Assembly (NCBI RefSeq): GCF_001619985.1
Contig: NW_017264202.1
Coordinates: forward strand, 1 to 64,000
DNA: 64,000 nucleotides
Direction: 5' to 3'
Source: Xylona heveae TC161
Lineage: Eukaryota > Ascomycota > Xylonomycetes > Xylonales > Xylonaceae
Every line of letters starts with the position of its first letter. Within the stretch, counting starts at the first letter, position 1. The position numbers and the translations under genes were made by a program. The notes below the pieces were generated by a model. It saw nothing but the letters and a program-made list of their open reading frames with translations, made no database searches and was not told the DNA's origin. Shown piece after piece: positions 493-60,745 of this stretch.

Positions 493-2062
493 TTATACCC
501 TCACGCCATCCTCTAATGGAGCCTCCGCTCTCGGAATGGTGATATACCGACTATGCTGTCTAATCCTATGGCCGTACTTATACAACACCCACGGCACTGG
601 CACCAGTGCCACCGACACAAACCCCAGCAAACTACTTGCCCACCCAATCCCCAGAACCGAGAACATCTGTACTGTAAACAATGGAAACGCACCGCCAGCT
701 GCGTACCGAAGCAGACTATTTGCGCTGAGGGCACTTGCCCCATGCAATGACCCATACGAGTTCATGATATAAAGCGCCCCGCTACTATACACCATGATGT
801 TGCCGACCGCGAATGGCACAGCCGCAATAACAGGACTCACCCAGGACACACCTGCATCTGCCGTCCACCCAAACCAGAAGAGACTGGCAGGGTTGAGGGC
901 ACAGCCAACCATTGCACCGTAGAGACGGTACTCGGGGGGCACAGCACCATACTTTGCTTCGAGGGCGGGGTATGTTCTTCGGTCAATGTAGACTACGGCA
1001 AGGAAGCCAATTACACAGCCCAGCGCTATCGGGATGAAGGTGAGGCCTTCCTGACCGGGGTTGAAGTGGTACTGGCGGCCAAAGACATACGGAAAGGCAG
1101 CAAAGAAGCTGTAAAACACGGCAAAGTTGAACGCCATGTAGATGGTCATAAAGAGAACGATTGACTCAAAGAAGAGCATTTTGAACGGCTTGAGAACGAT
1201 ACGTTGTATGACGGCGCCGGAAGGGATCGTAGACTTGAGCTTTGGCTGCGGGGTTGTGCTGGGGTTGGCTCTTTTCTCGGCACGGTTGCGTTTTTGGAGG
1301 ATCGTTTTCTTGTAGGTTTCAAACTGTGGGATGGAGTAAAGGTAGCTGAAGGCGACCATGAAAAGAATCACCCATTCGAGCCAGCGAAAGTCCTTTTTCT
1401 CGCTGACAAAGCCACCAATAACCGGTCCTAGAGTGCAGCGGTTAGTGATAAAGTCATGCCAGCCGTAGAGAGTCAGTCGCACCGAGGGCTGGGCCAAGGA
1501 AAGGCGAGACGAAATAGAATGGATAAACAAGACCTGTCAGAGCAGGAGGCCAGAGGTCTGCATTTGTGCCGCCACCAACTGAGACGACCGCGCTGCCAAA
1601 AAAACCACCCAAGCAGCGGCAGGCAATCAACGTGGCAAAGTTCTTTGCTAAGCCGGAGCCCAGGATAAACAGCCCGAATATGGGCACCGTCGTGAGATAT
1701 ACAATTCTGCGTCCATAATGCTCGCTGACCGGTGCCGCGACGATGGCCCCAAGACCAAGACCCCAAAGGAAGAGGGAAAGCCCCAGCAGAGCTGCCGTGT
1801 GGGAGACGCCAAACCGTTGACCAATGTCTTTGGCTCCAGATGTGTAGATGGACGAGGCAAAGGACCTGCCGGAGTCAGAATCTGCATTTCTCAGTCGATG
1901 GACCATGCATGCCTACACAGTAATGCAGAGGAATGCGGGAATACTGGTCATGTAGATGCGCTTCCACATCGGCCAGTTGTATGGACAGTCGGGATCATCA
2001 GGGCCCCTCCAGTCGTCGATGCCCGATTCTGGTTGAGCATTGCTAGGCATGCCATGAGCCAT
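493..2062 (-). CDS. MFS transporter, DHA1 type (multidrug/polyamine-like)
   Basis: Predicted plasma-membrane drug:H+ antiporter of the major facilitator superfamily. Model: exons 2062-1917, 1865-1483 and 1427-493, introns 1866-1916 and 1428-1482, together 488 codons (487 aa) with no internal stop. Splicing is needed: the first intron removes a TAG and restores ITVSFASSIYTSG; the second restores the family motif SPFLGPALGPVIGGF. Other family marks are the cytosolic N-terminal DDPDCPYNWPMWKR segment, the loop APVSEHYGRR between helices 2 and 3, and a C-terminal half with about six hydrophobic segments. The start at 2062 is the first ATG in frame, and the length is normal for the family. Substrate cannot be told from sequence. 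Its neighbour inward is the oxidoreductase-formyltransferase fusion, so export of that cluster's product is possible but inferred. Confidence 0.88.
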
Positions 2063-3949
2063 ACTACTCCTGCTGGCAACGCTCGCTCTCTGCGTTAGTA
2101 ACAGAGAAAGCTTAGCAACGGTAGTTCACAGAAGCAAGAGAGCTTCATGAATCAATTAGTCATAGAAATACCTACTTTGGCATGCAAGTGAGAGAGAATA
2201 TGTCAAGAACCCTTTTCCGGCACTAATTGGACAATACCCGGACTGACCCACTGTTGGTTTCGGGGTTTTTCTTTCGGTTTTGGCGCAAGAAAAAAATGTG
2301 GGCCTTCCGTGGTTGCAGTACGTAGTCTGTGGTGTTTCCTGATTCCTGTTATTATGTGATTCCTTGGTCAGTACGGAGTACTTTTAAACATATCATCTCC
2401 TTATCGTTTTTCCTGGATTTCTTTTCTTTGAGTCATTCTATTTGAAATCCTCGGAGCGGCCAATGATATTTTTGTTAGACGTACAATTCGTGCTAGGGCT
2501 AACCGACCCTGTAACAGCTACCAGGTATGTGTCAACCAATAATGATACCACCATCATCCCCCGGCTTTTGCTTCAAGGGTTAGAGTAGGATTAGACCGTA
2601 TAGAAGAGTTCGTAGTAGAGACTCGCACGGGCTAGGGGACGGCACACGACGGATCGTCGGAAATTTACCTAGGGGATTGGCAGAGCCGCAGTACACGAGT
2701 ACTCCGTACATATACTCTCCGACCGAACAGGTCGTAGGATGTGTGCGCACGGTAGCCTGTAAGGTACCTAAACGAGCACTAAAGTCATAGCGTCTTGTTG
2801 ATCCTGGTCGGTTCGGAAGCACCTTGGAGTATTCATCATAGCTCCAAAGGCCATTGCTTCCAAGCGTGCTCTGTATCAGAAGAACGAGTGGCCATTGAGA
2901 TGCGGTGGGTCTGCATGGTGGATCTGGCGGCATGGCATCGGCCATAAGTTTCCGAGCTGGGCAAGAAGCAGTAACGCCGTAGTCGAATTGGGATATACGG
3001 ATAACACGACAAGTGACAGAAAAATGGCGTTATTATGGTGCTCTAAGTAGCTGGAGCAGGGGGTCCAGAACCAACATATCAAGATCCAGTTTCTTTGAAC
3101 GGGAGTTTACTTCCATGGCAAAACAAGTGTCGGGCATGCCGTGCGACGTTTCAACCCAAATAATCCAAGCTCGATCTTCAGAACGGGCCGGGTGGGTGGG
3201 CGGGCCGAACCCTCTTGCCGCCTGGACTAATTCATTCGCAACGCCTTGGCTCCTGTTTTGCGGCGTCCAGATCCACCTCCACAAATTGATGGGTGGACAA
3301 ATTCACAAGTGTCTCTAGTGCTGACTTTGCTTGTATACGACACGAATGATATAGTTGAACAGATTGGAAGCTGAAGGAAATGGCGCCTCGGAGAGACTGG
3401 GATAACCATAGTAACGGGGATCATCGATTAATTTTCGAGAAGTAGCTGACCTGTGTCATGGTGGCAGTACCGAGCTCAGAACTTTACCAACAAGCACGCC
3501 ATATTCAGAAAAGCCTGCATATTCTACCTTACTGCAACTAAAGTTATCCCTCATTATCTAGTTTCGGTCTTTCCAGCATGACAAAAGTGCCGGGCAGCAG
3601 AAGTCGTTGATTAGCGTCTTCTTGGTCATTATACGAGCTATAATGTTTCCAATTCCACAAAGGTTCCCATGCAGAAGCCTCAACTCCGCCGAAGACAACA
3701 ACTCCACCTGTGCCGCAAGGTAGCGTTGATGCCGGAGATCTACTCTACAGAATTACGTACCCTAAAACAATCATGCAAAGCGAGGTGATGAAAAAAAAAA
3801 TGCTTCCATTTTTATACTCAAGAAGAGGGGAGCTCAGTGTAGATGCTGAAATACAGGGCAAGATGGGTTATAAAAGGGTGCGTTTTCCATAGACCCCAGA
3901 GTCAAATTCAGTCTGAACCAAATCACTCACTTCTCATGTTAATTTAGCC
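2063..3949. other. Intergenic region between transporter and fusion enzyme
   Basis: About 1.9 kb with only short, unconvincing open frames on either strand. It should hold the promoters of the divergent transporter and fusion genes. Two copies of a GTACGGAGTAC motif in opposite orientation lie at 2371-2381 and 2699-2709. A TATA box lies at its right end. Confidence 0.6.
3869..3875 (+). promoter_or_regulatory. TATA box of the fusion gene
   Basis: TATAAAA in the context GGTTATAAAAGGG lies about 75 bases before the ATG at 3950. The spacing leaves a 5' leader of roughly 45 bases, a normal layout for a strongly regulated fungal gene. Confidence 0.6.
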
Positions 3950-6580
3950 ATGAAGTTCCTCATTAGTACACGTTCTTCCTCTTTTCGTGCTGTGACCCAT
4001 TCATCTACATACATTCACTTCTGCGATCCCACCGCTGACGACCTTTCCATCCCATTGACCGGTCCGGAGCCGGTAGACGTGTGGATATGTAATGGTCAAG
4101 AGGCTACCTTTGAACTGATAAACCAATGGCTGGACCAAGCCAATCATATCCCCAAATCAATCTTGGTGGAAGACCCCACTGCCCTTTCTCGTCTGCAGGA
4201 CTTTTCAGAGGGCCGTGTGTTTCAAATCGCAGGGTTCCCAGAGCATAAGTCTACTACGATACAATGGGAGGAATCCATCCTTCAGGAAGCAGAAATGCTC
4301 TACGCGCGTGCACGCGCCAATAAAGCAGTCCGGCAGCAAAATCCCATGAAAGACAAGAATGGCAAGCCGATTGTTCTGCTTGTTGGAGCGGGTATCATGA
4401 ATCTTTTTACCGCAGAATTTTTAGCTGCCCGTGGTTACCAAGTGCGCGTCGTGGATGCGGGCCCCGATCCTCGAGGCTGTCAGGACTGGACGCGCCTGGG
4501 CGTCACCAATGGTGGTGGCAATGCCCGTATGTACACTCGGACCGAAGCCGACAACTACAATGAGAAAGGGAGTAAAATTTACGAAGATATGCAGTCAATT
4601 TTCCGAAAATCCGTCCGGAATGGCGGATGGAGCGTGAAGTTGCCCGAGGATTTTACTGCCGCTGAGCATGCTTGGGTGCATGCGTTTGAGCAGATTCCCG
4701 CTTGGTTGGCGAGGGCTTTCAGGGATAATATTCACGACGTCAACATGGAAGCTGGCAAGCTCTGGAATGAATACATCCAAAGCTGTCCACATTTATTCCA
4801 AGAGGTCGAATTCCGCAAAGACATCCTCCGCATGTACGTGGAGCCTGTTGCTCTGGACACAGCGCTAACGCTACATCGCCAGCTTGGGGCGGTCATTCAG
4901 GCCCCTTCTCCACAGGAGTTTCTGGATGCCAATCCCGGCTTCAAGTCCGCAGCTGGGTCGGACCATCTCGCGGGAGGAATCATGGTGGAAGGATTCACAG
5001 TGAATATTCACCCTTTCGTGGCCAAGTTGATGGACCGAATTATTGGTCTCGGTGGGGAGTTTCTCTGGAACTGTGAAGTGCAGGGCATAAAGCGTGACGC
5101 CCTGGGCAAAGTGACCATGTTAGAATCGCAACTTGGACCGCTAGAAGCGGATCACTTCGTGGTGAGCCCCGGCGTGACCGGAAATATACTGCTGAATGGA
5201 ACGCGCTGCGAAAACCTGGTCCACGGGGTCCTTGGAATATGGCTACAAATCCCCAACTTGAACCGGCAGCAGAAGCATTCTATCAAGATCCATCGCCGAG
5301 GTCACCTTGTCGAAGATATCAATGTGACTGTGGCGAAGGATGTCGATACCGGTGAAGACATCCTTATGTTTGGTGGTGGTTACGGTTATGTTGGGGAGAG
5401 TCGCCCCGCGCCTGATTCTCCGGAACTCATGGCCCTCTTCAATGAGTTGGAAGAGGTGGCACGTATCTATTTCCCGCAAGGATATGCGGTAGCAAAAGAT
5501 CGTGGCACGCTGTACCCGGGTGGAAACCGCAAGTTCTGCGTCCGACCTTTTACACCCACGGGCCTCGGAGTCTATGAGGAGATTCCTACAGCAAATGGAG
5601 GGTATCTGATCATTACTGGCGGGAACAACACTGGCGGCTTTGCCCAGGCACCAGCTGTAGCGCGTGCGGTCTGGCGCTCATTGGAGGGGGAGCACGATCC
5701 TATTCATGTGCTGTTCCACCCTGATCGAGGCAGGCTCCCCACTGGCACGGCTTACAACTACCACTCTATTAAGCCGCTATCCATGGACAAAGTAGGGGCT
5801 CGCAAACCCCTGCGGCTGCTTTTGCTCTGCTCGGATGGTCCCCAGCACCGCTACCTACGATACCGTCTGGACCAGACCTTCCCCGGCTACCGCTGTGTTC
5901 AGGAAACAACTGAGGGACAGGTGCGCCGGCTAGTTGAAAAGCGCCGTATAGTCGATGCGTTTTATACGAGATACCATGGCCTACGACGTTACCTCTCCGG
6001 CCACGATACTTTCCGTGAGGCTTACTTTAACGACCTGGTCCCAGACGACCATACCTCCCCAACACCAGACCTCACTGTCGACAGTGTCAACTGTAACCAG
6101 GTGTGGGATGCGGTGGCTGAATGGAAACCCGACCTCACCATCGTGTCAGGCACAAAATTTATCGGAAAGAAGCTAATCGCCCGTGCTGGACTCATGATTA
6201 ACCTGCATACAGGGCATCTACCGGACTACAAGGGCAATCACTGCATATTCTTCGCTTTGTATAACGGGGAGGTGGACAAGGTGTCGTCGACTTTGCACCA
6301 GCTAACGTCGACACTGGATGGGGGTGACATTTTAGATAGGGTGGTTCCGCCAGTGTTTCCTGACGACAACGAAGAAACGCTGTATACACGGTGTAGTCAT
6401 ATGGCAGTAGATCGGGTAATTGAGCATGCCGAGCAGTTTTCCATGGGAAAGAGGCTCGCTTTCGTCCCACAGGAGGTGAAAGGAACAACGTTTCGGCATC
6501 GTGACCGTACGCCTGCAAAGGAGTTGGCGCTATGGTGGAAACTGAGTGTGAGCGGGCTGTCTCAGAAAAATGTTGATTAA
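3950..6580 (+). CDS. Fused FAD-dependent oxidoreductase and formyltransferase
   Basis: One uninterrupted 876-aa frame with two enzymes. Residues 1-135 form an unassigned N-terminal part. Residues 141-170 are a Rossmann FAD-binding fold, IVLLVGAGIMN...VRVVDAG, with Asn in place of the third glycine. The DAO-like (D-amino-acid oxidase/dehydrogenase) domain runs to about 610, with the late FAD-binding GGYLIITGGNNTGGF. Residues about 630-870 resemble the methionyl-tRNA formyltransferase catalytic domain: INLHTGHLPDYKG gives Asn751 and His753, and LDGGDIL gives Asp790. This matches the Asn-His-Asp triad of the family in order and spacing. The likely chemistry is oxidation of an amine or amino acid together with transfer of a formyl group, probably from 10-formyl-tetrahydrofolate. 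The substrate is unknown. No signal peptide or transmembrane segment is seen, so it is probably cytosolic. Mitochondrial fMet-tRNA formylation is unlikely given the fusion and location. Confidence 0.85.
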   Translation: MKFLISTRSSSFRAVTHSSTYIHFCDPTADDLSIPLTGPEPVDVWICNGQEATFELINQWLDQANHIPKSILVEDPTALSRLQDFSEGRVFQIAGFPEHKSTTIQWEESILQEAEMLYARARANKAVRQQNPMKDKNGKPIVLLVGAGIMNLFTAEFLAARGYQVRVVDAGPDPRGCQDWTRLGVTNGGGNARMYTRTEADNYNEKGSKIYEDMQSIFRKSVRNGGWSVKLPEDFTAAEHAWVHAFEQIPAWLARAFRDNIHDVNMEAGKLWNEYIQSCPHLFQEVEFRKDILRMYVEPVALDTALTLHRQLGAVIQAPSPQEFLDANPGFKSAAGSDHLAGGIMVEGFTVNIHPFVAKLMDRIIGLGGEFLWNCEVQGIKRDALGKVTMLESQLGPLEADHFVVSPGVTGNILLNGTRCENLVHGVLGIWLQIPNLNRQQKHSIKIHRRGHLVEDINVTVAKDVDTGEDILMFGGGYGYVGESRPAPDSPELMALFNELEEVARIYFPQGYAVAKDRGTLYPGGNRKFCVRPFTPTGLGVYEEIPTANGGYLIITGGNNTGGFAQAPAVARAVWRSLEGEHDPIHVLFHPDRGRLPTGTAYNYHSIKPLSMDKVGARKPLRLLLLCSDGPQHRYLRYRLDQTFPGYRCVQETTEGQVRRLVEKRRIVDAFYTRYHGLRRYLSGHDTFREAYFNDLVPDDHTSPTPDLTVDSVNCNQVWDAVAEWKPDLTIVSGTKFIGKKLIARAGLMINLHTGHLPDYKGNHCIFFALYNGEVDKVSSTLHQLTSTLDGGDILDRVVPPVFPDDNEETLYTRCSHMAVDRVIEHAEQFSMGKRLAFVPQEVKGTTFRHRDRTPAKELALWWKLSVSGLSQKNVD

Positions 6581-6781
6581 AATATGAATGTTTTTGTTTT
6601 GTCAAAGTAAGAAACTATTGTATTGAGCATGAAATTGAAAACACCAGTCTCCGTAGCACCTCATACCGCAAGTACGTGTGGGCCAACGCTTGAACCCAGC
6701 AGAAGAGAATATAAGTAGTGGATTCTCTGGTAACATGCGCGAATTACTGCTCCACTGCGTAGTAGCCCTAAATTAATAAGA

Positions 6782-6788
6782 TATATAA
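6782..6788 (+). promoter_or_regulatory. TATA-like box of the amidotransferase gene
   Basis: TATATAA lies about 140 bases before the ATG at 6923, within the 342-base spacer (6581-6922) that separates it from the fusion gene in the same orientation. The rest of this spacer is AT-rich near the fusion gene's 3' end and becomes CT-rich after the TATA element. Confidence 0.45.
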
Positions 6789-6839
6789 GCCAAAGTATTC
6801 GCCCCTCTTCCTATCTTCTCTCCAGTTCCCCTGTATTCC

Positions 6840-6917
6840 ATGTGCGCCAGCACAAGTTGCGTCTTTTCAATAGTATTCCACCACAGCCCTCTATTCTGGC
6901 CGTGTCAATTTCCCTAG
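6840..6917 (+). other. Upstream open reading frame in the amidotransferase leader
   Basis: An ATG at 6840 opens a 25-codon frame ending in TAG at 6915-6917, five bases before the main ATG at 6923 and in another frame. It lies downstream of the TATA-like element, so it is probably in the transcript if initiation occurs there. Short uORFs this close to the main start usually lower translation; that effect is inferred here. Confidence 0.45.
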
Positions 6918-6922
6918 CACCC

Positions 6923-7831
6923 ATGTCTTCCACCAGGATCACCACGATGCGCATCGCTGTCATTGAATGCGACTCTCCAATAGATCCTGTGCGGGAGCGC
7001 CTGGGCAGCTACGGGGATATGTTCGAGCGGCTCCTGAACGCAGGGCTCAAGAGCCTGAACTGGGAGAACCAAGTCGGTCTGAAAATGACAAAGACGAGCG
7101 CAGTGGACAATTTTGTCTTTCCTAGCCCGGAGACGTACGACGCTCTTCTCTTGACTGGAAGCAGTATGTCGAAACCCGACCCAACAATGACGCCACTCCG
7201 CCCAGAGGCTTAGGACTGACAAGCACAGAATGGGATGCATTTTCCGACACTGAATGGATCATCGAATTGACAAAGTACGTGGCAAAGGTCTTCAAGGAGA
7301 CCACCAAGCCAATCCTGGGTGTTTGCTTTGGCCATCAGATTATCGCCCGGGCACTGGGTGCTCCCGTCGGGCGAGGTAGCGAAGGGTGGGAGATCGCCGT
7401 GGAACCAATTGCGCTGAATGAAACAGGACGGTTGCTGTTCGGCAAGGAGATTTTGGTATGCCATGAACAAGGCCATTTCTAGCTCCATGAGACGAAGACA
7501 TTGGTTGTTGGCTAACAGGTTGCCTCCGCAGGCTCTGCACCAGATGCACCGAGATATCGCATACGAGGTACCGGTGGGGTGTGTGAATGTAGGATCAACA
7601 CCCAAATGTCAGGTACAAGGGTTGTACATGCCACAGCGGATCCTAACTGTACAAGGACATCCAGAGCATAATGAGTTTGTCATCAGGAGTATGATTGAGA
7701 TGCGGTACAGCCAGGGTATTTTTGAAGAAGGCTTTGCAAAAAGTAAGCTGTTGCAAGCAGGAATTGAACATGATGGAGTTGTTGTAGCAGAGGCTATTTG
7801 TAGATTTGTTTACAATACATTATCAATATAG
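6923..7831 (+). CDS. Class I glutamine amidotransferase (GMP-synthase-like)
   Basis: Predicted glutamine-hydrolysing amidotransferase or gamma-glutamyl hydrolase of the GATase1 fold. Exons 6923-7163, 7229-7455 and 7532-7831 (introns 65 and 76 bases) give 256 codons (255 aa). The first intron joins LLTGS to KWDAFSDTEW; the second joins FGKEIL to ALHQMHRD. The catalytic set is present: the nucleophile elbow ILGVCFGHQ (Cys113) and the His-Glu pair in VQGHPEHNEF near the C-terminus. Nothing follows the GATase domain, so it is the stand-alone type (fungal and plant GGP1-like proteins) and not a GMP synthetase, which would carry an ATP-pyrophosphatase. The ATG at 6923 is the first in frame after the TATA element; a second at residue 9 (MRIAVIE) is also possible. 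It follows the formyltransferase fusion in the same direction, which suggests a shared pathway. Confidence 0.87.
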
Positions 7832-7914
7832 ATATAGTTATAGCTCTTAGCGTAACTCCATCCGGTCTGGGGTGAAAAGTAAGGACGGTGGTAGAGCCTA
7901 GAAACCGACCCTGA

Positions 7915-7995
7915 CCACCCCCAAGCCGGGTTAGGGTTATGAGGAACAGGGAGGTCAAGACCAACCTGGACCGGACTAGCGGACGCCCTATACAG
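7915..7995 (+). repeat. Dispersed repeat relic, copy A
   Basis: A stretch with CAAGCCGGGTTAGGG, then GGTCAAGACCAACC, then GCGGACGCCCTAT. The same blocks in the same order occur in copy B (8100-8172) and more weakly in copy C (11300-11362). It lies in the 344-base spacer between the convergent amidotransferase and SDR genes. A short telomere-like GGTTAGGGTTA is embedded at 7928. The family is not identified. Confidence 0.45.
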
Positions 7996-8099
7996 TCTAT
8001 TACTTATGCTCAAGATTTTATTTCTTGTATTTTATTTTATTTTCTAACTATATAATTTCACCTCTATATATATATATATAATAGAAGAGGTCAGAGCCC

Positions 8100-8172
8100 A
8101 GCCCAGTCTGTCCTCAAGCCAGGTTGGGAAGAAATGGATCAAGACCGACCCGGACTGGATTGGCAGACACTC
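8100..8172 (+). repeat. Dispersed repeat relic, copy B
   Basis: The blocks TCAAGCCAGGTTGGG, ATCAAGACCGACCCGG and GGCAGACACTCCAT match copy A in order and orientation. A run of TA dinucleotides (about 8066-8082) separates the two copies. It ends a few bases before the stop codon of the SDR gene. It looks like a decayed short repeat and shows no coding potential. Confidence 0.45.
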
Positions 8173-8175
8173 CAT

Positions 8176-9075
8176 CTACCAAGCACAGTGCCCTCCATCA
8201 ACCCGTAGGTCTGCACCAGTCATGAAGCTACTGGCATCCCCAAGCAAAAACAGTACGGGCCCTCGAAATTCATCCACTGTACTCAATCGGTAGAGCATAT
8301 TATCCCCAGTCCACTGGCTCTCCATACCTGGCTTCTTCAGTGCCTCCGCAGTTGCAGCAGTTCGAATATAGCCAGGCGACAAGGTGTTCACTCGAATCAG
8401 AGGCATACCCTTCCGGGATCCCCATTCAGCTGCCAAAGACCTTGCGAGTTGCAGCACACCCGACTTGGAAGTATTGTATGCCGCAGTGTCCACTCCCTAA
8501 TAACCATTACCTTTGTTAGCACATAATTGCCGTGCAACTGTCCTTTGTGCAGGTCATACCTTATTTGCAACAGTGCCACTCATGCTCGCCACGAGAACCA
8601 TGCTGCCGCTAACATCTGCTTTCTTCATCTCCAATGCCACAGCTTGAGCAACTGAGAATGTTCCAACGACATTGATCTCCAACAGGCGCTGAAATCTCTC
8701 TGCGGAGAATTCGTGTGCAGGGTCATTGTCGGAAACACCGGCACATGCCACGAGCCCTCGAATGGGGTGCCTCAAATTGGGAACGAACGAGGCAAAGGTC
8801 TCGGAGATGTTATCATGATTGGTGATGTCGACGCGGAGGTAGCGGATGACTCCACCATGCGTCTTAGCCACGCCTTCAAGATGTTCTTGGAGCCAATGTT
8901 TTAGCCTCCTCCCACCGCAGACTAACCAATGTTCAGGGTGTCACTTACCCCATGATTCGGGAGGCGGAGTCGGGACCACGTCAAGGCAGACCACGTCTCC
9001 GCCTGCTTCAAGGATGGAACCAGCCACCTCACGTCCTAAGAAGCCGGCCGCGCCAGTGACTGCGGTAGGTGCCAT
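8176..9075 (-). CDS. Short-chain dehydrogenase/reductase
   Basis: Predicted NAD(P)-dependent oxidoreductase. Exons 9075-8949, 8885-8560 and 8496-8176 (two 63-base introns) sum to 258 codons (257 aa), normal for a single-domain SDR. The Rossmann motif is TGAAGFLG (residues 7-14), with glycine spacing typical of extended rather than classical SDRs. The rest is classical: ACAG at 89-92, Asn114 in EINVVG, a catalytic Ser in VASMSG, Tyr158 and Lys162 in AYNTSK, and a C-terminal GADLRVDGG. The first splice (ESW joined to EHLEGVAK) rests on a CCAAG acceptor and is less certain than the second. It converges on the amidotransferase gene. A role in the same metabolic group as the formyltransferase fusion is inferred from position only. 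Confidence 0.87.
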
Positions 9076-9826
9076 TTCAGCATACACACCTGAATCTAAT
9101 GCGACATCAGAGGCAGAACTTACCCACGATTGTTCTGTTGTTCAGACGGAAAAGATCAGACGAAGAAACCTGCGGTCCGCCTTGGGGCTCTTTTACTTCA
9201 CGAAACGCTGGGTCTGCAAGGTTGCTCATTTTCAAGTGGGAGCTGAATTTCTATTTTCAGGTGGCTTGATTCTGTTGTAATAAATTATTGAGACTAAAGA
9301 AAAAACAAAGGGCTGCCATCTTTAAGTCTGCCCTTCAAATTCCGCTTCAATTGCAATGACGTTCCTCGGTGGTTTGGTAATACTCTCGTTCCAAGACCTA
9401 CGTAGTACGGCAGAACCCGCAGACAAACTCTCCCCACCCTGCTGGCGAACCCCACCACCTGCCGCTTACCGTCTTCCCGCCCTCCCGCCTTTCACTTTCC
9501 ACCTGCCACGTTATAGTAATAATGTGGGAATCACGTTACCCCCTATCTCAAGCTTACGGCGGAGATTCATTGTATTGGACAAGTCAGGAGAAAATTCAAA
9601 AGGTGCAAGATATGCATGCCTCGACTGCTCGTGTCCTGTTGTCTGCAAGCCGACAGTCAACTCTTGATCATGTTCTGATAAACAACGCTGATGTTGGTAG
9701 AGAATACAAACTTGCCAACACCACTCACCTAAGATATTCAAACTTTTAATTCAAGTACCTTTGTTAAGTCATTCTGCTACTACGAGTCCTATTAAACTTA
9801 GAAATCAGAAGATAGTTAAATTTATC
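9076..9826. other. Intergenic region right of the SDR gene
   Basis: It holds the SDR promoter and the 3' flank of the gap-interrupted gene. About 9400-9500 is C/T-rich. No convincing coding frame, repeat or RNA gene was seen. Confidence 0.6.
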
Positions 9827-10885
9827 CTATTCATCATAGTTAATACAATCTTCAGGGACCAAAGTAGTACGAAAGTTACTACACCGGTTTTCATATATGT
9901 TCCGATACATCTCCTTCATGTCCAGACGGTCTGGCCAACTGCCATACCATTCCAAGAAATCTGGAATGGTATCAAAAACGTAGGGCATCTCATCCATCAT
10001 GTTGTATCTATCGGTGTAAAATATAATTCGCCAGGCCCAGCCATCATTTGAGTCTCCCTCTGACCTGCCGCTTGTTGGTTGACAGTATGCATAGTAGCTA
10101 AAAAAAAAAAAAAAAACTCATCCCCTGTGCAGTTGATACCCATCTCGATGGCAACTTTCGTCTCACGGGGGTTCTAATCAAACTGACCCCAAGCCAAATC
10201 CTCAATTTCTATGAAGCAGTTTTTGAGAGAGTACCTCATTCCCGGGTCCCATTTACATATTGCTTCACAGCGAAAATCGGGGTCATGAACCCCATTGGCG
10301 TATTTGAGAAAGATATCGAGATCTTTAGTTGCTCTAATGCGAAATTCACCCTCGGTCTTGGCGTACTCATTGCTGACATTCTCAAGCTTTTCCAGAAGAA
10401 GCTGTCGCTGTTGGTCATCAAGCAAAGGGGGATCGATTCCATCCATATATGGATGGAAAAGGTCTTTTACCTCTTCCAACCGGGTAACTGCTAGCTCGTG
10501 GAGCGTCTGATCTTTCATATATTGGGGGAGTTGAGGTTGGGGAAGCTCTTTCGGCCATTCACTGCTTCTGCACCAGTAACGAGCCATGACATTTAACTTT
10601 GCCCTTTCGTCAGGCAAGTTGAGCTCTTCAATTTCCTTGATACGGTCGTTGATGAATTGCTTATTGGATGAGTACATTTTCTGCCGGAATTTATCGATTG
10701 CTTGGCGAATCTCATCTTCCAAGGGGTCTGAGTCCTCAGGACTATGCGCTGCATGAGCTGGTTCTTTTTCACTGCTGACGGTACGAATAGGGATTTCGTA
10801 GACGTCTGCGTCCCTNNNNNNNNNNNNNNNNNNNNNNNNNNNNNNNNNNNNNNNNNNNNNNNNNNNNNNNTTCGTCGCTCATCAT
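9827..10885 (-). CDS. Uncharacterised fungal protein, interrupted by an assembly gap
   Basis: Function not recognised. Coding blocks on the minus strand: ATGATGAGCGAC at 10885, then a run of N, then a frame down to 10184 with EIPIRTVSSEKEP and later KWDPGMRYSLKN and EIEDLAWG. A further exon from 10097 to 9827 reads YYAYCQPTSGRSEGD, DGWAWRIIFYTDRY and DTIPDFLEWYGSWPDRLD, ending in TAG. The parts join in phase across an 86-base intron (10098-10183) with a weak GTTTGA donor and a strong poly-T/TAG acceptor. If that intron is not used, the upstream frame stops at 10174 and the gene would be truncated. Acidic, aromatic-rich and soluble, with no signal peptide or membrane helix. Exact length is unknown because the N run may not have its true size. 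Confidence 0.6.
10816..10870. other. Assembly gap (55 N)
   Basis: Fifty-five undetermined bases fall near the 5' end of the uncharacterised gene. With the gap at its nominal length the start codons at 10885 and 10882 are not in frame with the downstream coding part, so either the gap size is arbitrary or a further intron lies within or beside it. Confidence 0.99.
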
Positions 10886-11462: not shown

Positions 11463-13460
11463 TCAGACTAAGTTATCTTCTTCTCGTTTAACTCCGACAA
11501 CTACCAGATTCCGTGGGCTCAACATATAATCAAATACACTTTCAACCCAAGCAAGCTGTATGTTTGGTTGTTCTTTCAGGAACAACCACCGATCAACAAC
11601 AATAACTGCCTCAACAACACCCGCACTAAAGGCCATTAAACTCCAAATAACGCTGAGTTCTTTGCGGCGATGATAATATCGAGTTTCATAATCTTCAATT
11701 TCAGCGTCAGTCATAGCAGCAATACTATCGCAAATGAGTGTTGACCGGCTTGTTGAATCTTGCTGGGCAATCTTTGATACAGCTCCTCGTACATATGCTG
11801 TGAACGATGTGTAGCATGCTTTCCGCAGCGACCCGATGATTATCGGTTCCGTGCCGCCAGGAGTACCAGCGCCTGCTCCTGAACCTAATTCAGACGCGGT
11901 ATTCTGAGACTGTGCCGCAGGATTGATAATTCCACGGTCCAGGAAGATCCTCTGAAGCAATGCTCTGAAAAAATGCCTGGTGAAGAAGGATTCACTTTCT
12001 TCCTTTGTCCAGTTCTGGGGAGCTTGTACGGCCATCATTCTAGCGGTGATGTTGAACCTGATTCCAGTTGAAGACTCTGCCTCACCATCTTCATGCCCAG
12101 GGAGCGGATATGTGGCAAGTCGGTCGGACATTGGAAATCCGTGCGGGTCGAATGCCGTTGAGGTCTTTTCCAGGCGAGGGTGCGCGGCACGCAAGGTTGG
12201 CAATTTATATGTTGGTGGGCCAAGGCGTTCAGTGACGAGATTATAGCAGCACCCGATTAAGGCAACTGCGGAGACAGTTGGGTTGAGAAGCAGAGAACGG
12301 ATACCATGGTGGAGTAGGTTTCCGCAGGAATGAAGAGATATTACCATCAGATTCTTTGGCGCAGCTGAAACTTGACTGGTCGCGTCAGATGCTTCTGGGC
12401 GTTGATTCTGCTCCTCTTCCTCTATCTTTCTCAGCACTGGCGAGAGATTTCCATCCTGAATCATGTGTTCAACATATTGGATGGTGCCTTGCCCTTCCTC
12501 TGACACCTTCTTCGGATTGTAAACTCGAATTGGCATGCCAAAGCCGTCGTCCTTGATGGGCGGTAGGCTAGCCGGCTCGGAAGCAGAAATCGAATCTTGG
12601 CTCTGAGCGGAGTTCGCGGCAGATTCTATTTGCGCATCCGAAACTTCCAATTCGGGCTCTTCTTTGCTCTGCGGTCCTTTTTCCTGAAATTTCCGAGCTG
12701 CTTTCTCTTTGCGAAATTGCTTCTTATCTCGCATAATCTTTTCCTTCTTCACGATCTTGGCCACTCGGTCATAGTCTCGTGCTCCGTCAATGTTAAGCTG
12801 CTTACTTTCAATGGCTATAATATGCCTGTTGTAAGGCTGGCTGGCCAATGCTCGCCCCAGATAATTCTGTCCAGAGCCAAAATCAACGAGATGAGTAAGT
12901 TCACGCCCGCCGCCCTCTTTAATCTCATCCATTAAATTGTCGACATAGCGAGCGAAATTTTCAACCTCGTGAATTTTTTTCGGCTTCATGCCTATCGCAA
13001 TGCTCCGTGGCATCGGCGGTTGCTTCGCTCCATTGGGAGGACCACAGTGTCTGCTTGGTCGCGGCTTGAACTCTCGCGCAAGACAATGCTTGCGTATATT
13101 TTTTGCATATTCGACGAGTGAAGACGGCGGTAAGGGGCCGCCTCTCCATGGTATCGCCTTCTCTTTTGTCTGCCATGGCTGTTCCGCTTCCTTGTAAAGC
13201 GGCGCAAATTTCTGAAGATCCTCGTGCATCAAGAAATCGAGAATATCATGAATATCCCTCTCTTCAAGCCAACTGCGCCAAGACTCAGGGAGTACAGTCG
13301 AGTAGAGACTCGGCTCCCGTGTAAAAAAATCTAAGATATGAACTCCACCGCATAACGTTTGAAACAGTTCGCAAGAGGTGGAAAATTGCAAGAGAGATTC
13401 AACATAGGAATCTGCGTCTTTAAACTCAGGAGGCAATGGTAGAGGTGCTGATGGAGCCAT
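11463..13460 (-). CDS. METTL25/RRNAD1-family methyltransferase
   Basis: Single-exon 665-aa protein with a split Rossmann methyltransferase domain. The N-terminal helical part (1-150) includes WRSWLEERDIHDILDFLMHE. The SAM-binding motif is HLVDFGSGQNYLGRALA (about 190-207), followed by AIESKQLNIDGARDYDR. A charged, low-complexity linker (about 230-350) precedes the second half with MVISLHSCGNLLHHGIRSL and GCCYNLVTERLGPP, both characteristic of the METTL25 family. The family is a SAM-dependent methyltransferase group; its fungal substrate is not established. Start at 13460 is the first ATG. It is divergent from the t-SNARE gene across 470 bases. Confidence 0.85.
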   Translation of the reverse strand: MAPSAPLPLPPEFKDADSYVESLLQFSTSCELFQTLCGGVHILDFFTREPSLYSTVLPESWRSWLEERDIHDILDFLMHEDLQKFAPLYKEAEQPWQTKEKAIPWRGGPLPPSSLVEYAKNIRKHCLAREFKPRPSRHCGPPNGAKQPPMPRSIAIGMKPKKIHEVENFARYVDNLMDEIKEGGGRELTHLVDFGSGQNYLGRALASQPYNRHIIAIESKQLNIDGARDYDRVAKIVKKEKIMRDKKQFRKEKAARKFQEKGPQSKEEPELEVSDAQIESAANSAQSQDSISASEPASLPPIKDDGFGMPIRVYNPKKVSEEGQGTIQYVEHMIQDGNLSPVLRKIEEEEQNQRPEASDATSQVSAAPKNLMVISLHSCGNLLHHGIRSLLLNPTVSAVALIGCCYNLVTERLGPPTYKLPTLRAAHPRLEKTSTAFDPHGFPMSDRLATYPLPGHEDGEAESSTGIRFNITARMMAVQAPQNWTKEESESFFTRHFFRALLQRIFLDRGIINPAAQSQNTASELGSGAGAGTPGGTEPIIIGSLRKACYTSFTAYVRGAVSKIAQQDSTSRSTLICDSIAAMTDAEIEDYETRYYHRRKELSVIWSLMAFSAGVVEAVIVVDRWLFLKEQPNIQLAWVESVFDYMLSPRNLVVVGVKREEDNLV

Positions 13461-41521: not shown

Positions 41522-42691
41522 ATGCATTTCTCTGCTGCTACCGTTGCGGCCGCCGTTTTCGGCTTCTCCGCCTATGCCAACGCGCACATCATCATGACTA
41601 GCCCTGTACCGTACGGCAAGTCCACTCTCAACAACAGCCCTCTGTCGCCCGACGGCAGTGACTTCCCTTGCAAGCTCAGACAGGGTGCCTTTGACACCGA
41701 GGGCGCCGACAACGAGATGCGCCTCGGTGATCCTCAGAAGCTTGAATTTGAGGGTATGGCTGTCCATGGCGGTGGCTCCTGCCAGGTCTCCATCGCCTAC
41801 ACCCGTAATCCTGACAAGGACACTAAGTTCAAGGTCATCAAGTCCTTTGAAGGTGGCTGCCCCGCCCGCAACGTCGACGGAAACATCCAGGGCAACACCC
41901 CCACTACTCCTCTTCCCGACAAGTACAACTTCACCATCCCCGCCGACCTCCAGACCGGTGAGGCTACCATCGCCTGGACCTGGTTCAACAAGGTCGGTAA
42001 CCGGGAGATGTACATGAACTGCGCTCCTGTCACCCTGACTGGTGGCAACAGCAAGCGCGACGAACCCGTCAAGCGTGATGCCTTGGACTCTCTGCCCGAT
42101 CTGTTCGTTGCCAACGTTGGCAATGGCTGCAACACTGCCGATTCCACCGACCTCGTGTTCCCCAACCCAGGAAATGATGTCGAGAAGAAGCCCAATGACC
42201 AGAGCTTTGCGCCTCCGCAGGGTAACTGCCAGAGCGGCTCCGGCTCCTCCGGCAACTCCTCCTCCTCCAGCAGCGAGTCTTCTTCCACCAGCGCCGCTCA
42301 GAGCTCTAGCGCATCCGGTGGTGTCTTCGTCACCGCGGCTGCTCCTTCCTCCTCGGCTGCCAGCGTGACCGTCAACCCCGTCAACCCCGTCACTTTCTCA
42401 ACCGCCACCCGTGCTGCCGCTACCGCTGGTACTGGCGTCCCCACTGTCACCGGTTCGAGCGGTAACGGTAACGGCACCTCTACTGGCAGCTGCTCCAAGG
42501 ATCAGGCCGGTCAAACCGTCTGTTCTGCTGACGGCAAGCAGATTGGAACCTGCAACGTTGACGGTTCCGTCGTCTTCGGCGACGTTGCTGACGGTACCGT
42601 CTGCGAGAAGGGCTACCAGGTCGCCGCGCGCAGCGTCCGCGCCCCTCGTGCCCACGTCCACCGCCGCCACGGCCACAGCCACAACTTCTAA
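41522..42691 (+). CDS. AA11 lytic polysaccharide monooxygenase with C-terminal X278-like module
   Basis: Secreted copper enzyme for oxidative chitin cleavage. Intronless, 389 aa. The signal peptide is MHFSAATVAAAVFGFSAYAN, cleaved after Ala21 so that mature His1 is H22 (HIIMTSPVPYGKSTLNNSPL). The histidine brace is completed by His82 in AVHGGGSCQVS; the axial Tyr164 lies in GNREMYMNC. NNSPLSPDGSDFPCK and WTWFNKVGNREMYMN are AA11 signatures. A Ser/Gly-rich linker (about 235-330) joins the catalytic domain to a small Cys-containing module (GSCSKDQAGQTVCSADGKQ) like the X278 module of other AA11 enzymes, thought to bind chitin. The end is basic and His-rich (HVHRRHGHSHNF). The KRDEPVKRD stretch near 180-187 offers dibasic processing sites. 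Confidence 0.94.
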   Translation: MHFSAATVAAAVFGFSAYANAHIIMTSPVPYGKSTLNNSPLSPDGSDFPCKLRQGAFDTEGADNEMRLGDPQKLEFEGMAVHGGGSCQVSIAYTRNPDKDTKFKVIKSFEGGCPARNVDGNIQGNTPTTPLPDKYNFTIPADLQTGEATIAWTWFNKVGNREMYMNCAPVTLTGGNSKRDEPVKRDALDSLPDLFVANVGNGCNTADSTDLVFPNPGNDVEKKPNDQSFAPPQGNCQSGSGSSGNSSSSSSESSSTSAAQSSSASGGVFVTAAAPSSSAASVTVNPVNPVTFSTATRAAATAGTGVPTVTGSSGNGNGTSTGSCSKDQAGQTVCSADGKQIGTCNVDGSVVFGDVADGTVCEKGYQVAARSVRAPRAHVHRRHGHSHNF

Positions 42692-59167: not shown

Positions 59168-60745
59168 TCACTCGCTCGTGCCACCAGCATTCTCGTCAAG
59201 CGGTTTGTCTTCCTTCTCAGAGGTCTGGCTGGGCGATCTGCGATTCACGGCCTTCTCCTCATCTGCAGGCGGGCGCGGCGTCTCGTCCGTCCGCGCAAAC
59301 TGGGACCGCCCCCGGATTGCGGCGCCGTACTTGTAGAAGATGAAAGGTATGGGCATCAGCAGCACGCCCACGCCGCCGATGAGTGAGCCAGCCCCGCCTA
59401 CACCGAGTGCATTGAACATGTACTGTGTGAAGAGTGGGGACGCCGCGGCGCAGGCGGACCGCAGAACGGTGTTTGCTGCGACGGCGGACGCGGCGTACAT
59501 CAGGTACGAGTCGATGATATAGTTGATGAAGACGACGAAGATGAGCAGGATTGACGTGGCGAGGAAGGTGCCCGCCACAGTCGGCACGGCCCAGTGGACC
59601 GAGTTGTATTCCGCCGTCCAAGCGAACCAAAATATCGTCACGGCGAACATGATCCCGCCAACCATCGCACCGGGAAGGCGATCTTCTGGTACTGATTCGC
59701 GGTTGCGGGTCTTCTTCTTGTCTATTTGGCTATTGATGAATAGCGCCAGGCCGCCGAGACCCGCGCCGATGACTGTGCCGATCAGTGGCAGCTCACCGAC
59801 GCCGGCATTCCAACCACGCTTCTGCTGGAAGACGATGGGGTAGATGCTGAAGAGCATGTACAGCAGAGTATAGACGACGGCGTAGTATATCGCCACGAGG
59901 AAGCTGATTGGGTCGATAAGAAGTCTCCATGGCCTCGTCAGGGCGACTTTGAAGATGCCTCCCAGGGAACGATCAGACGCCTCGATTGGAGCCTTGACGC
60001 TCTCATTGCCAGGTATTTTGCGTAGGCGCCGGGCCTTGTTTCGCAGGACCATCATGGGAAGGGTCTCCGGGAGAGTGATGAGCAGAAGCTCGGTGCCACC
60101 CGCCATCCAGAGGAGGACATAGAAGGTCCAACGCCACGTCTCCTTTAGCTGAAGGAATCCACTGACCACTGGCCCAAGAGCAGGTCCCACGAAGGTCATT
60201 GTGGCAAACAGAATCATGGCGTTGCCTCGCTCGACGGGACCCCAGATGTCCGCAAGGATGCCGGGTGCATTCGTCAGGGCAGCACTGGCTGCCGTGCCAG
60301 TCAGGAAACGGCCGACCAAGAGCCCGGCAAAGTTGGGCGTAAAGGCGCAGAGGAAGCCAAAGGCGAGGTAGAGGGTGAAGGAGATGTAAAAGATCCAGCG
60401 ACGGCCATAGAACTCGGACAAGGGGGCCCAGAAGAACGGACCGGCGACGTAGCCTAGGAGGAAGAGGGTGGTGACGAGGCCGGCGGCCTCGACAGAGACG
60501 TGAAGGTCGTCGCTGACGCCCTGGAAAGAGCCGGATGGTGCAGAGGAGGAGAAGGTGGCATTCATGACGAGGGAGATGGCGATGGCGGTGATGTAGCACT
60601 TGCGTCCAAACGAATAGTTTTTTGGGTTCTCGGGGTCGTCTGGTGCAAAATCGAGGTGGCCATCCTTGTCGAAGAAGAGCTTCTCATCCGACCCGACGAC
60701 AGCGGTCGAGGTGCGCATTGGGAATATGCGCCTGACAAACTCCAT
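59168..60745 (-). CDS. MFS transporter, DHA1 type (drug/polyamine exporter-like)
   Basis: Predicted plasma-membrane antiporter. Intronless, 525 aa from the ATG at 60745. The cytosolic N-terminus has the family signature APDDPENPKNYSFGRK before helix 1. The loop APLSEFYGRRWIF joins helices 2 and 3; motif C is VGPALGPVVSGFL in helix 5. A central cytosolic loop (about 225-265) precedes helices 7-12. The polar C-terminal tail (after IPFIFYKYGAAIRG) is about 55 residues and rich in Glu, Ser and Pro. It differs in sequence and gene structure from the transporter at 493-2062, so the two are not recent copies. It is divergent from the nitroreductase gene across 493 bases, which suggests co-regulation. 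Confidence 0.93.
   Translation of the reverse strand: MEFVRRIFPMRTSTAVVGSDEKLFFDKDGHLDFAPDDPENPKNYSFGRKCYITAIAISLVMNATFSSSAPSGSFQGVSDDLHVSVEAAGLVTTLFLLGYVAGPFFWAPLSEFYGRRWIFYISFTLYLAFGFLCAFTPNFAGLLVGRFLTGTAASAALTNAPGILADIWGPVERGNAMILFATMTFVGPALGPVVSGFLQLKETWRWTFYVLLWMAGGTELLLITLPETLPMMVLRNKARRLRKIPGNESVKAPIEASDRSLGGIFKVALTRPWRLLIDPISFLVAIYYAVVYTLLYMLFSIYPIVFQQKRGWNAGVGELPLIGTVIGAGLGGLALFINSQIDKKKTRNRESVPEDRLPGAMVGGIMFAVTIFWFAWTAEYNSVHWAVPTVAGTFLATSILLIFVVFINYIIDSYLMYAASAVAANTVLRSACAAASPLFTQYMFNALGVGGAGSLIGGVGVLLMPIPFIFYKYGAAIRGRSQFARTDETPRPPADEEKAVNRRSPSQTSEKEDKPLDENAGGTSE

Follow-up and report, generated by a model that had tools for sequence, protein, structure and literature searches.

An oxidase-formyltransferase fusion in a telomere-proximal gene group of Xylona heveae: a possible small cluster without a backbone synthase

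Described systems and the telomere-proximal locus

The fungal chrysogine (chy) cluster and the FVG (gvg) cluster of Pseudomonas are the described systems against which we compare a group of four genes at a chromosome end of the ascomycete Xylona heveae TC161. The window, meaning the whole stretch of DNA that was analysed, comprises 64,000 nucleotides (assembly GCF_001619985.1, contig NW_017264202.1, positions 1 to 64,000). The four genes, all intact and within 9 kb, encode a major facilitator superfamily (MFS) transporter, a fusion of a DAO-family oxidase with a formyltransferase, a protein with the class I amidotransferase (GATase) fold, and a short-chain dehydrogenase/reductase (SDR). We tentatively read them, at somewhat less than even confidence, as a small cluster without a polyketide synthase (PKS) or non-ribosomal peptide synthetase (NRPS) that would make and export an N-formylated derivative of an amino acid or amine. 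The idea of one pathway is strengthened by the analysis and not established; the gene group itself is real, intact and unusual.

In chrysogine biosynthesis, the fungal class I GATase ChyE, which has a Cys-His-Glu triad, hydrolyses a gamma-glutamyl tripeptide; it is a published fungal precedent for a class I GATase acting as a gamma-glutamyl hydrolase (PMC9622831). Like the X. heveae locus, the chrysogine cluster unites a class I GATase with an SDR and enzymes that use flavin adenine dinucleotide (FAD). Unlike it, and as far as a likeness by description goes, it includes an NRPS, a class II amidotransferase and an alpha-ketoglutarate dioxygenase, and the word formyl is absent from its main text (PMC9622831). 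The gvg cluster, again likened by description, resembles our locus in its formylated amino-acid-like compound, its formyltransferase GvgI and its LysE-type transporters, and differs in being bacterial, in having a carbamoyltransferase and in that the accessible description contains no DAO fusion (PMC8064604). By analogy, the closest kinds would be small clusters such as gvg (PMC8064604), with chrysogine as the comparison for the amidotransferase.

For the fusion alone, the DAO half resembles the DAO-fold amine oxidases dimethylglycine oxidase, sarcosine oxidase and MnmC (1pj5, 1y56, 3pvc) in weak profile matches (0.00024 to 0.0007). Dimethylglycine oxidase joins a DAO fold to a folate-binding part; the folate part of the fungal fusion, unlike that one, is a formyltransferase. 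Among the matches listed, no description of a DAO-formyltransferase fusion was found in the open-licence literature. Among formylated fungal products, we considered hadacidin and gyromitrin; they remain ideas, as no study of their biosynthetic genes was recognised among the matches listed.

Gene models, domains and predicted activities

The features of the locus, numbered from the first letter of the window, are the following.

1-95, no strand: telomere repeat, CCTAAC x 15.8 (Tandem Repeats Finder).
493-2062, minus strand: MFS transporter, 487 amino acids, three exons (2062-1917, 1865-1483, 1427-493); spliced model, PF07690.
2063-3949, no strand: stretch separating the divergent MFS and fusion genes; six frames, none with a Pfam match (E up to 0.1).
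3950-6580, plus strand: fusion gene, 876 amino acids, single exon; open reading frame (ORF), PF01266 and PF00551.
6923-7831, plus strand: class I amidotransferase-fold, gamma-glutamyl peptidase-like protein, 255 amino acids, three exons (6923-7163, 7229-7455, 7532-7831); spliced model, PF00117.
7832-8175, no strand: intergenic stretch on which the amidotransferase and SDR genes converge; it holds, at 7910-7939, a weak telomere-junction-like 30-mer (inverted match).
8176-9229, minus strand: SDR, 287 amino acids, four exons (9229-9124, 9059-8949, 8885-8560, 8496-8176); spliced models, adh_short_C2.

The fusion protein consists of an N-terminal extension (about residues 1-140), a DAO domain (142-574; PF01266, E = 1.2e-22, 81.3 bits against a cut-off of 27.9) and a formyltransferase domain (about 620-862; Formyl_trans_N, PF00551, E = 4.8e-14, 52.9 bits against a cut-off of 26.1). 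An FAD motif, GAGIMN, begins at residue 146, and G146, G148 and N151 are invariant in all six members of the oxidase family, as is Cys530. This cysteine shares an alignment column with the Cys of CTYDNSPDE in E. coli solA, which we take to be FAD-binding, and not with a Cys in dadA. A covalent flavin cysteine is a feature of sarcosine oxidase and N-methyltryptophan oxidase, and Cys530 possibly holds FAD covalently too; since the identity to solA is only 18%, the covalent flavin is a prediction only.

The formyltransferase half retains Asn751, His753 and Asp790, which are invariant in all four aligned relatives. Its scores against the NCBIfam equivalogs lie so far below the cut-offs (Fmt 46.9 bits against 201.5, PurN 39.7 against 150.1) that it is not a housekeeping copy, as the preliminary description of this DNA had proposed. 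Single-sequence structure prediction of the fusion was unusable (mean pLDDT 34.3).

In the prokaryote, plasmid, viral and PDB collections that were searched, the closest relatives of both halves are bacterial, and the relatives of each half were found separately. With the whole fusion as query at 1e-15, three of 398 genomes of the Shimia phylum gave matches, all through the formyltransferase half (38%, 33% and 30% identity); the best free-standing formyltransferase relative found comes from Shimia thalassica and is 259 residues long, with 38% identity across 242 residues. On plasmids at 1e-6, the same half matched 56 of 72,556 records, 51 of them from Sinorhizobium, with best identities of 25-34% among the matches listed, which mostly cover under half of the query. 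Three viral-contig stretches matched a pattern, and none is a relative. The Shimia thalassica formyltransferase stands behind genes for a pyridoxal phosphate (PLP) enzyme, an ATP-grasp protein, a lyase and a D-aminoacyl-tRNA deacylase-like protein (L001 2130-8768), a further gene of the group being read as GHMP-kinase-like; neither PKS nor NRPS was seen in this group, nor a DAO among its ORFs.

The amidotransferase-fold protein matches GATase (PF00117, E = 2.3e-14) and carries Cys113, His199 and Glu201. Its best match among 17 PDB sequences is gamma-glutamyl peptidase 1 (9k7i, 3.7e-22), which we take to be a plant enzyme, and the next kind of match is GMP synthase at 5.5e-9. The earlier suggestion of either amidotransfer or gamma-glutamyl hydrolysis stands as enzymology and can be sharpened to the second side: because the best solved relative is a gamma-glutamyl peptidase, removal of a gamma-glutamyl group is the likelier predicted role.

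The SDR (adh_short_C2, E = 2.6e-43, 148.7 bits) has its active-site residues Ser173, Tyr188 and Lys192 (YxxxK), and its best PDB match is the polyol dehydrogenase 3awd (3.5e-34). It lacks TGxxxGxG, the cofactor motif of classical SDRs; from residue 37 it reads TGAAGFLG, with the TGxxGxxG spacing of extended SDRs. The MFS protein matches MFS_1 (PF07690, E = 2.8e-34), and its best NCBIfam match is a Bcr/CflA efflux model (1.7e-24), below the cut-off of that model. A second MFS gene lies on the minus strand at 59168-60745, with 33% identity to the first over 474 aligned positions.

Gene models were built by hand splicing on GT-AG borders; each is in frame with a single terminal stop, and the short introns fit a fungus. 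The reality of the four genes was accepted without a chance model because their matches exceed the Pfam cut-offs. The CCTAAC units at the start of the window are perfect (100% matches), so this start is the chromosome end, and the gene group begins about 400 bases from the repeat, the end of the MFS gene being nearest. The preliminary description had seen four genes next to a telomere, with catalytic residues in place, no synthase backbone and core genes only after 11.4 kb, and each of these points held. Splicing, Pfam matches and telomere repeats bear out the genes, and the residues are present in the formyltransferase, the GATase and the SDR. No PKS, NRPS, terpene or other backbone enzyme was found among the four genes or in the scans of 2063-3949 (six frames) and 9700-10815 (three minus frames), which matched no Pfam family even with E-values up to 0.1 allowed. 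The first long core ORF starts at 11463. The SDR was also correctly recognised; its start at 9075 was not, as an extra first exon moves it to 9229.

Third-position GC of the four genes (0.54-0.61) falls within the range of six other ORFs of the window (0.46-0.75) and thus gives no sign of recent transfer or foreign origin. In blastn of the intergenic stretches against the window, only one 21-nt match appeared besides self-matches; the 20-mer at 7969-7988 matched only itself with up to three mismatches allowed. Rfam gave no match, and the composition profile nothing of use. Between the four genes and the core ORF at 11463 sits a 182-residue ORF on the minus strand (10174-10722) that matches no Pfam family and probably belongs to a gene or pseudogene running into the N gap of the assembly at 10816-10870. 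Farther inward, the ORF at 41522-42691 encodes an AA11 lytic polysaccharide monooxygenase; its best PDB match is 4mah (8.8e-71), presumably the Aspergillus oryzae enzyme.

Bacterial relatives of the oxidase half and their neighbourhoods

The oxidase half appears, from the searches described here, to belong to a rare family, of which we found five bacterial relatives. A protein search of the 72,556 plasmid records returned three (33-38% identity), and a query made from one of these plasmid relatives recovered the same three. An alignment of the oxidases searched at 1e-40 detected two of 368 genomes in the class of G016 (G869 and G1063), none of 385 in the class of G001 and none of 48 in the class of G110; the fungal query at 1e-30 found no oxidase half in the 398 genomes of the Shimia phylum. 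The control search recovered all three plasmids, and following up the families to which the two positive genomes belong brought one of four and one of 40, each the genome already known. Thresholds differ among samples, and the genome counts are lower bounds, since the samples overlap and scoring in the large ones was limited to three candidates per genome. The six oxidases share an N-terminal extension of about 130-150 residues, which had no Pfam match in the four oxidases scanned.

On the Ochrobactrum plasmid, genes for a gamma-glutamylcyclotransferase, an aminotransferase, LysE, the DAO protein and a GNAT N-acyltransferase follow one another on one strand. The Methylomagnum plasmid locus has two di-haem proteins, DAO, an NAD_binding_9 flavoprotein, a glutathione S-transferase (GST), a haloacid-dehalogenase-like protein and DMT. 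That of the Azospirillum plasmid has an NRPS (adenylation, carrier and condensation domains), EamA, DAO, a protein with the C-terminal half of NAD_binding_9, GST and MFS. The G869 locus contains MauG-like, DAO, TauE and NAD_binding_9 genes and one without a family, with a haloacid-dehalogenase-like gene on the other strand; G1063 has fatty-acid-hydroxylase-like, DAO, NAD_binding_9 and GST genes. The identities of LysE, DMT and the Azospirillum MFS are those of the record annotation, and genes of G869 and G1063 are long ORFs (14 per 17-kb stretch including DAO, with five others each scanned against Pfam).

Four of the five loci have a GST (three) or gamma-glutamylcyclotransferase (one) within three genes of the oxidase, four have an exporter-type gene (LysE, DMT, EamA plus MFS, or TauE; none was seen in G1063), and four have an NAD_binding_9 protein or, in Azospirillum, its C-terminal half only. 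Neighbours are related across loci (NAD_binding_9 38-51%, GST 40%, dehalogenase-like 48%). Counting the neighbour of the oxidase itself, GST_N_2 matches number eight in the 3.2-Mb G1063, two on the 863-kb Azospirillum plasmid and one on the 70-kb Methylomagnum plasmid, so that a point chosen at random would lie within 6 kb of a GST with a probability of about 3%, 3% and 17%, respectively. The rare DAO together with NAD_binding_9, often accompanied by a GST, haloacid-dehalogenase-like or exporter-type gene, forms a recurrent set (L009 6401-15600, L010 8625-14325, L015 2664-10882 and L016 5090-10572).

The closest parallel to the fungal locus is on plasmid pLM19O2 of Ochrobactrum sp. LM19 (about 45.6-51.5 kb), where a member of the oxidase family (37% over 462 amino acids) is encoded in one gene row together with a gamma-glutamyl enzyme, an exporter and an N-acyltransferase. 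It differs from the fungus in having a separate GNAT, a cyclotransferase instead of the peptidase-like protein and an added aminotransferase, and in having no SDR. Judged by domain content, four jobs would be common to both: gamma-glutamyl removal, amine oxidation, N-acyl transfer and export, which in the fungus would fall to the peptidase-like protein, the oxidase, the fused formyltransferase and the MFS protein. The two gamma-glutamyl enzymes have no detectable similarity to each other. A promoter scan of the Ochrobactrum locus gave nothing of use. A tree was built from eight proteins, the fungal one entering it without its first 100 residues; there, the fungal oxidase groups with that of Ochrobactrum (support 88/80).

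Weighing a shared pathway

The analysis shows the genes, their domains and catalytic residues and the neighbours of the bacterial oxidases; in the scheme that we propose, the substrate, the order of the steps, cofactor binding and the shared product are what we infer. Using FAD, possibly held covalently through Cys530, the DAO half would oxidise an amino-acid-like substrate at a C-N bond. The formyltransferase half would take a formyl group from 10-formyltetrahydrofolate and place it on an amine (or hydroxylamine) of that compound. The amidotransferase-fold protein, as a gamma-glutamyl hydrolase, would strip a gamma-glutamyl group from the intermediate, the SDR would act on a carbonyl or alcohol, and the MFS protein would export the product. 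A more specific version seems to us rather doubtful: that oxidation and N-formylation of a gamma-glutamyl-protected amino acid are the work of one fungal protein, that a bacterial plasmid pathway follows the same logic with a GNAT and a cyclotransferase, and that dissimilar enzymes thus fill the slots of a common protect-oxidise-acylate-unprotect-export scheme.

The shared product suggested in the preliminary description gains from the company of the bacterial oxidase relatives and loses from the promoter-word test, and several further observations weigh against it. The promoter regions share no 9-mer (random window triples share 0.53 on average); the six shared 8-mers, i.e., three words and their complements, fall inside the spread seen among 200 random triples (mean 2.28, maximum 56). 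There is no regulator gene among the four. The 30-mer at 7910-7939 is a weak inverted match to the telomere junction at 81-110 (80% over 30 nt), not recovered by blastn at E 0.01; since this telomere-junction-like stretch separates the amidotransferase from the SDR, the latter may be a bystander.

Support from the bacterial neighbourhoods appears thin, judged by gene content. A GNAT adjoins the oxidase in one of the five loci, and the full parallel is that of Ochrobactrum alone; the other four have neither GNAT nor formyltransferase next to the oxidase, and their NAD_binding_9 flavoprotein is absent from the four fungal genes. Exporters and acyltransferases are common genes. The genome G869 has eight GST_N_2 matches, the nearest about 78 kb from its oxidase, and the Azospirillum locus may be decayed, as the conserved C-terminal stretch of its DAO is absent. 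In the tree, 88/80 is below the mark of the program (95/80), which none of the five inner branches reaches, and the outgroup branches are very long. The fungal oxidase is nearly equally identical to those of Methylomagnum (36.7%), Ochrobactrum (35.9%) and G869 (35.2%); as the Ochrobactrum oxidase does not stand out as nearest by plain identity, we gave the shared pathway less weight, and more to an explanation by bystanders.

According to that explanation, which we consider a serious possibility if below the shared pathway in probability, the fusion, perhaps with the MFS or amidotransferase protein, has a single role, and the remaining genes, the SDR in particular, are accessory genes unrelated to it that gathered at the chromosome end. 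The telomere-proximal position, the lack of a common promoter word of at least 9 bases and the weak junction-like sequence between GATase and SDR all fit this, as does the presence of another, 33% identical MFS gene in the same window; such fungi abound in MFS and SDR genes. It accounts less well for four intact genes inside 9 kb, for the similar functional slots around the Ochrobactrum oxidase and for the precedent of ChyE as a class I GATase in a fungal pathway (PMC9622831).

An improbable alternative is a catabolic or detoxifying module, in which the DAO half would degrade an imported or toxic amine, formylation would inactivate an amine, the SDR would handle a polyol-like compound and the MFS protein would import or expel. 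The best solved relatives of the SDR are polyol and mannitol dehydrogenases, and the weak NCBIfam matches of the DAO half include D-amino acid dehydrogenase, which is often catabolic; the GST and haloacid-dehalogenase-like neighbours of the bacterial oxidases would also suit detoxification. Against such a module speak the Azospirillum relative near an NRPS, the exporter-type families of the transporters nearest the bacterial relatives and the best match of the fungal MFS protein, an efflux model, albeit below its cut-off. Least probable, and in our view very unlikely, is that the group is what is left at the edge of a bigger NRPS or PKS cluster, which would have lost its core through breakage of the chromosome end and formation of a new telomere: the MFS gene does end some 400 bases from the repeat, one oxidase relative (Azospirillum) lies near an NRPS and ChyE works with the NRPS ChyA (PMC9622831), but the four genes are intact and neither 2063-3949 nor the minus frames of 9700-10815 hold a synthase remnant.

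If the four genes do act together in a shared pathway, they would represent a kind of fungal small-molecule cluster without a backbone synthase, probably passed over by rule-based finders. They would likewise offer a first way into a rare DAO family of bacterial plasmids and a few genomes, found there beside glutathione and gamma-glutamyl enzymes. The amine oxidase-formyltransferase fusion predicts an N-formyl product, directly searchable by mass spectrometry, and its Ochrobactrum relative predicts an N-acyl counterpart.

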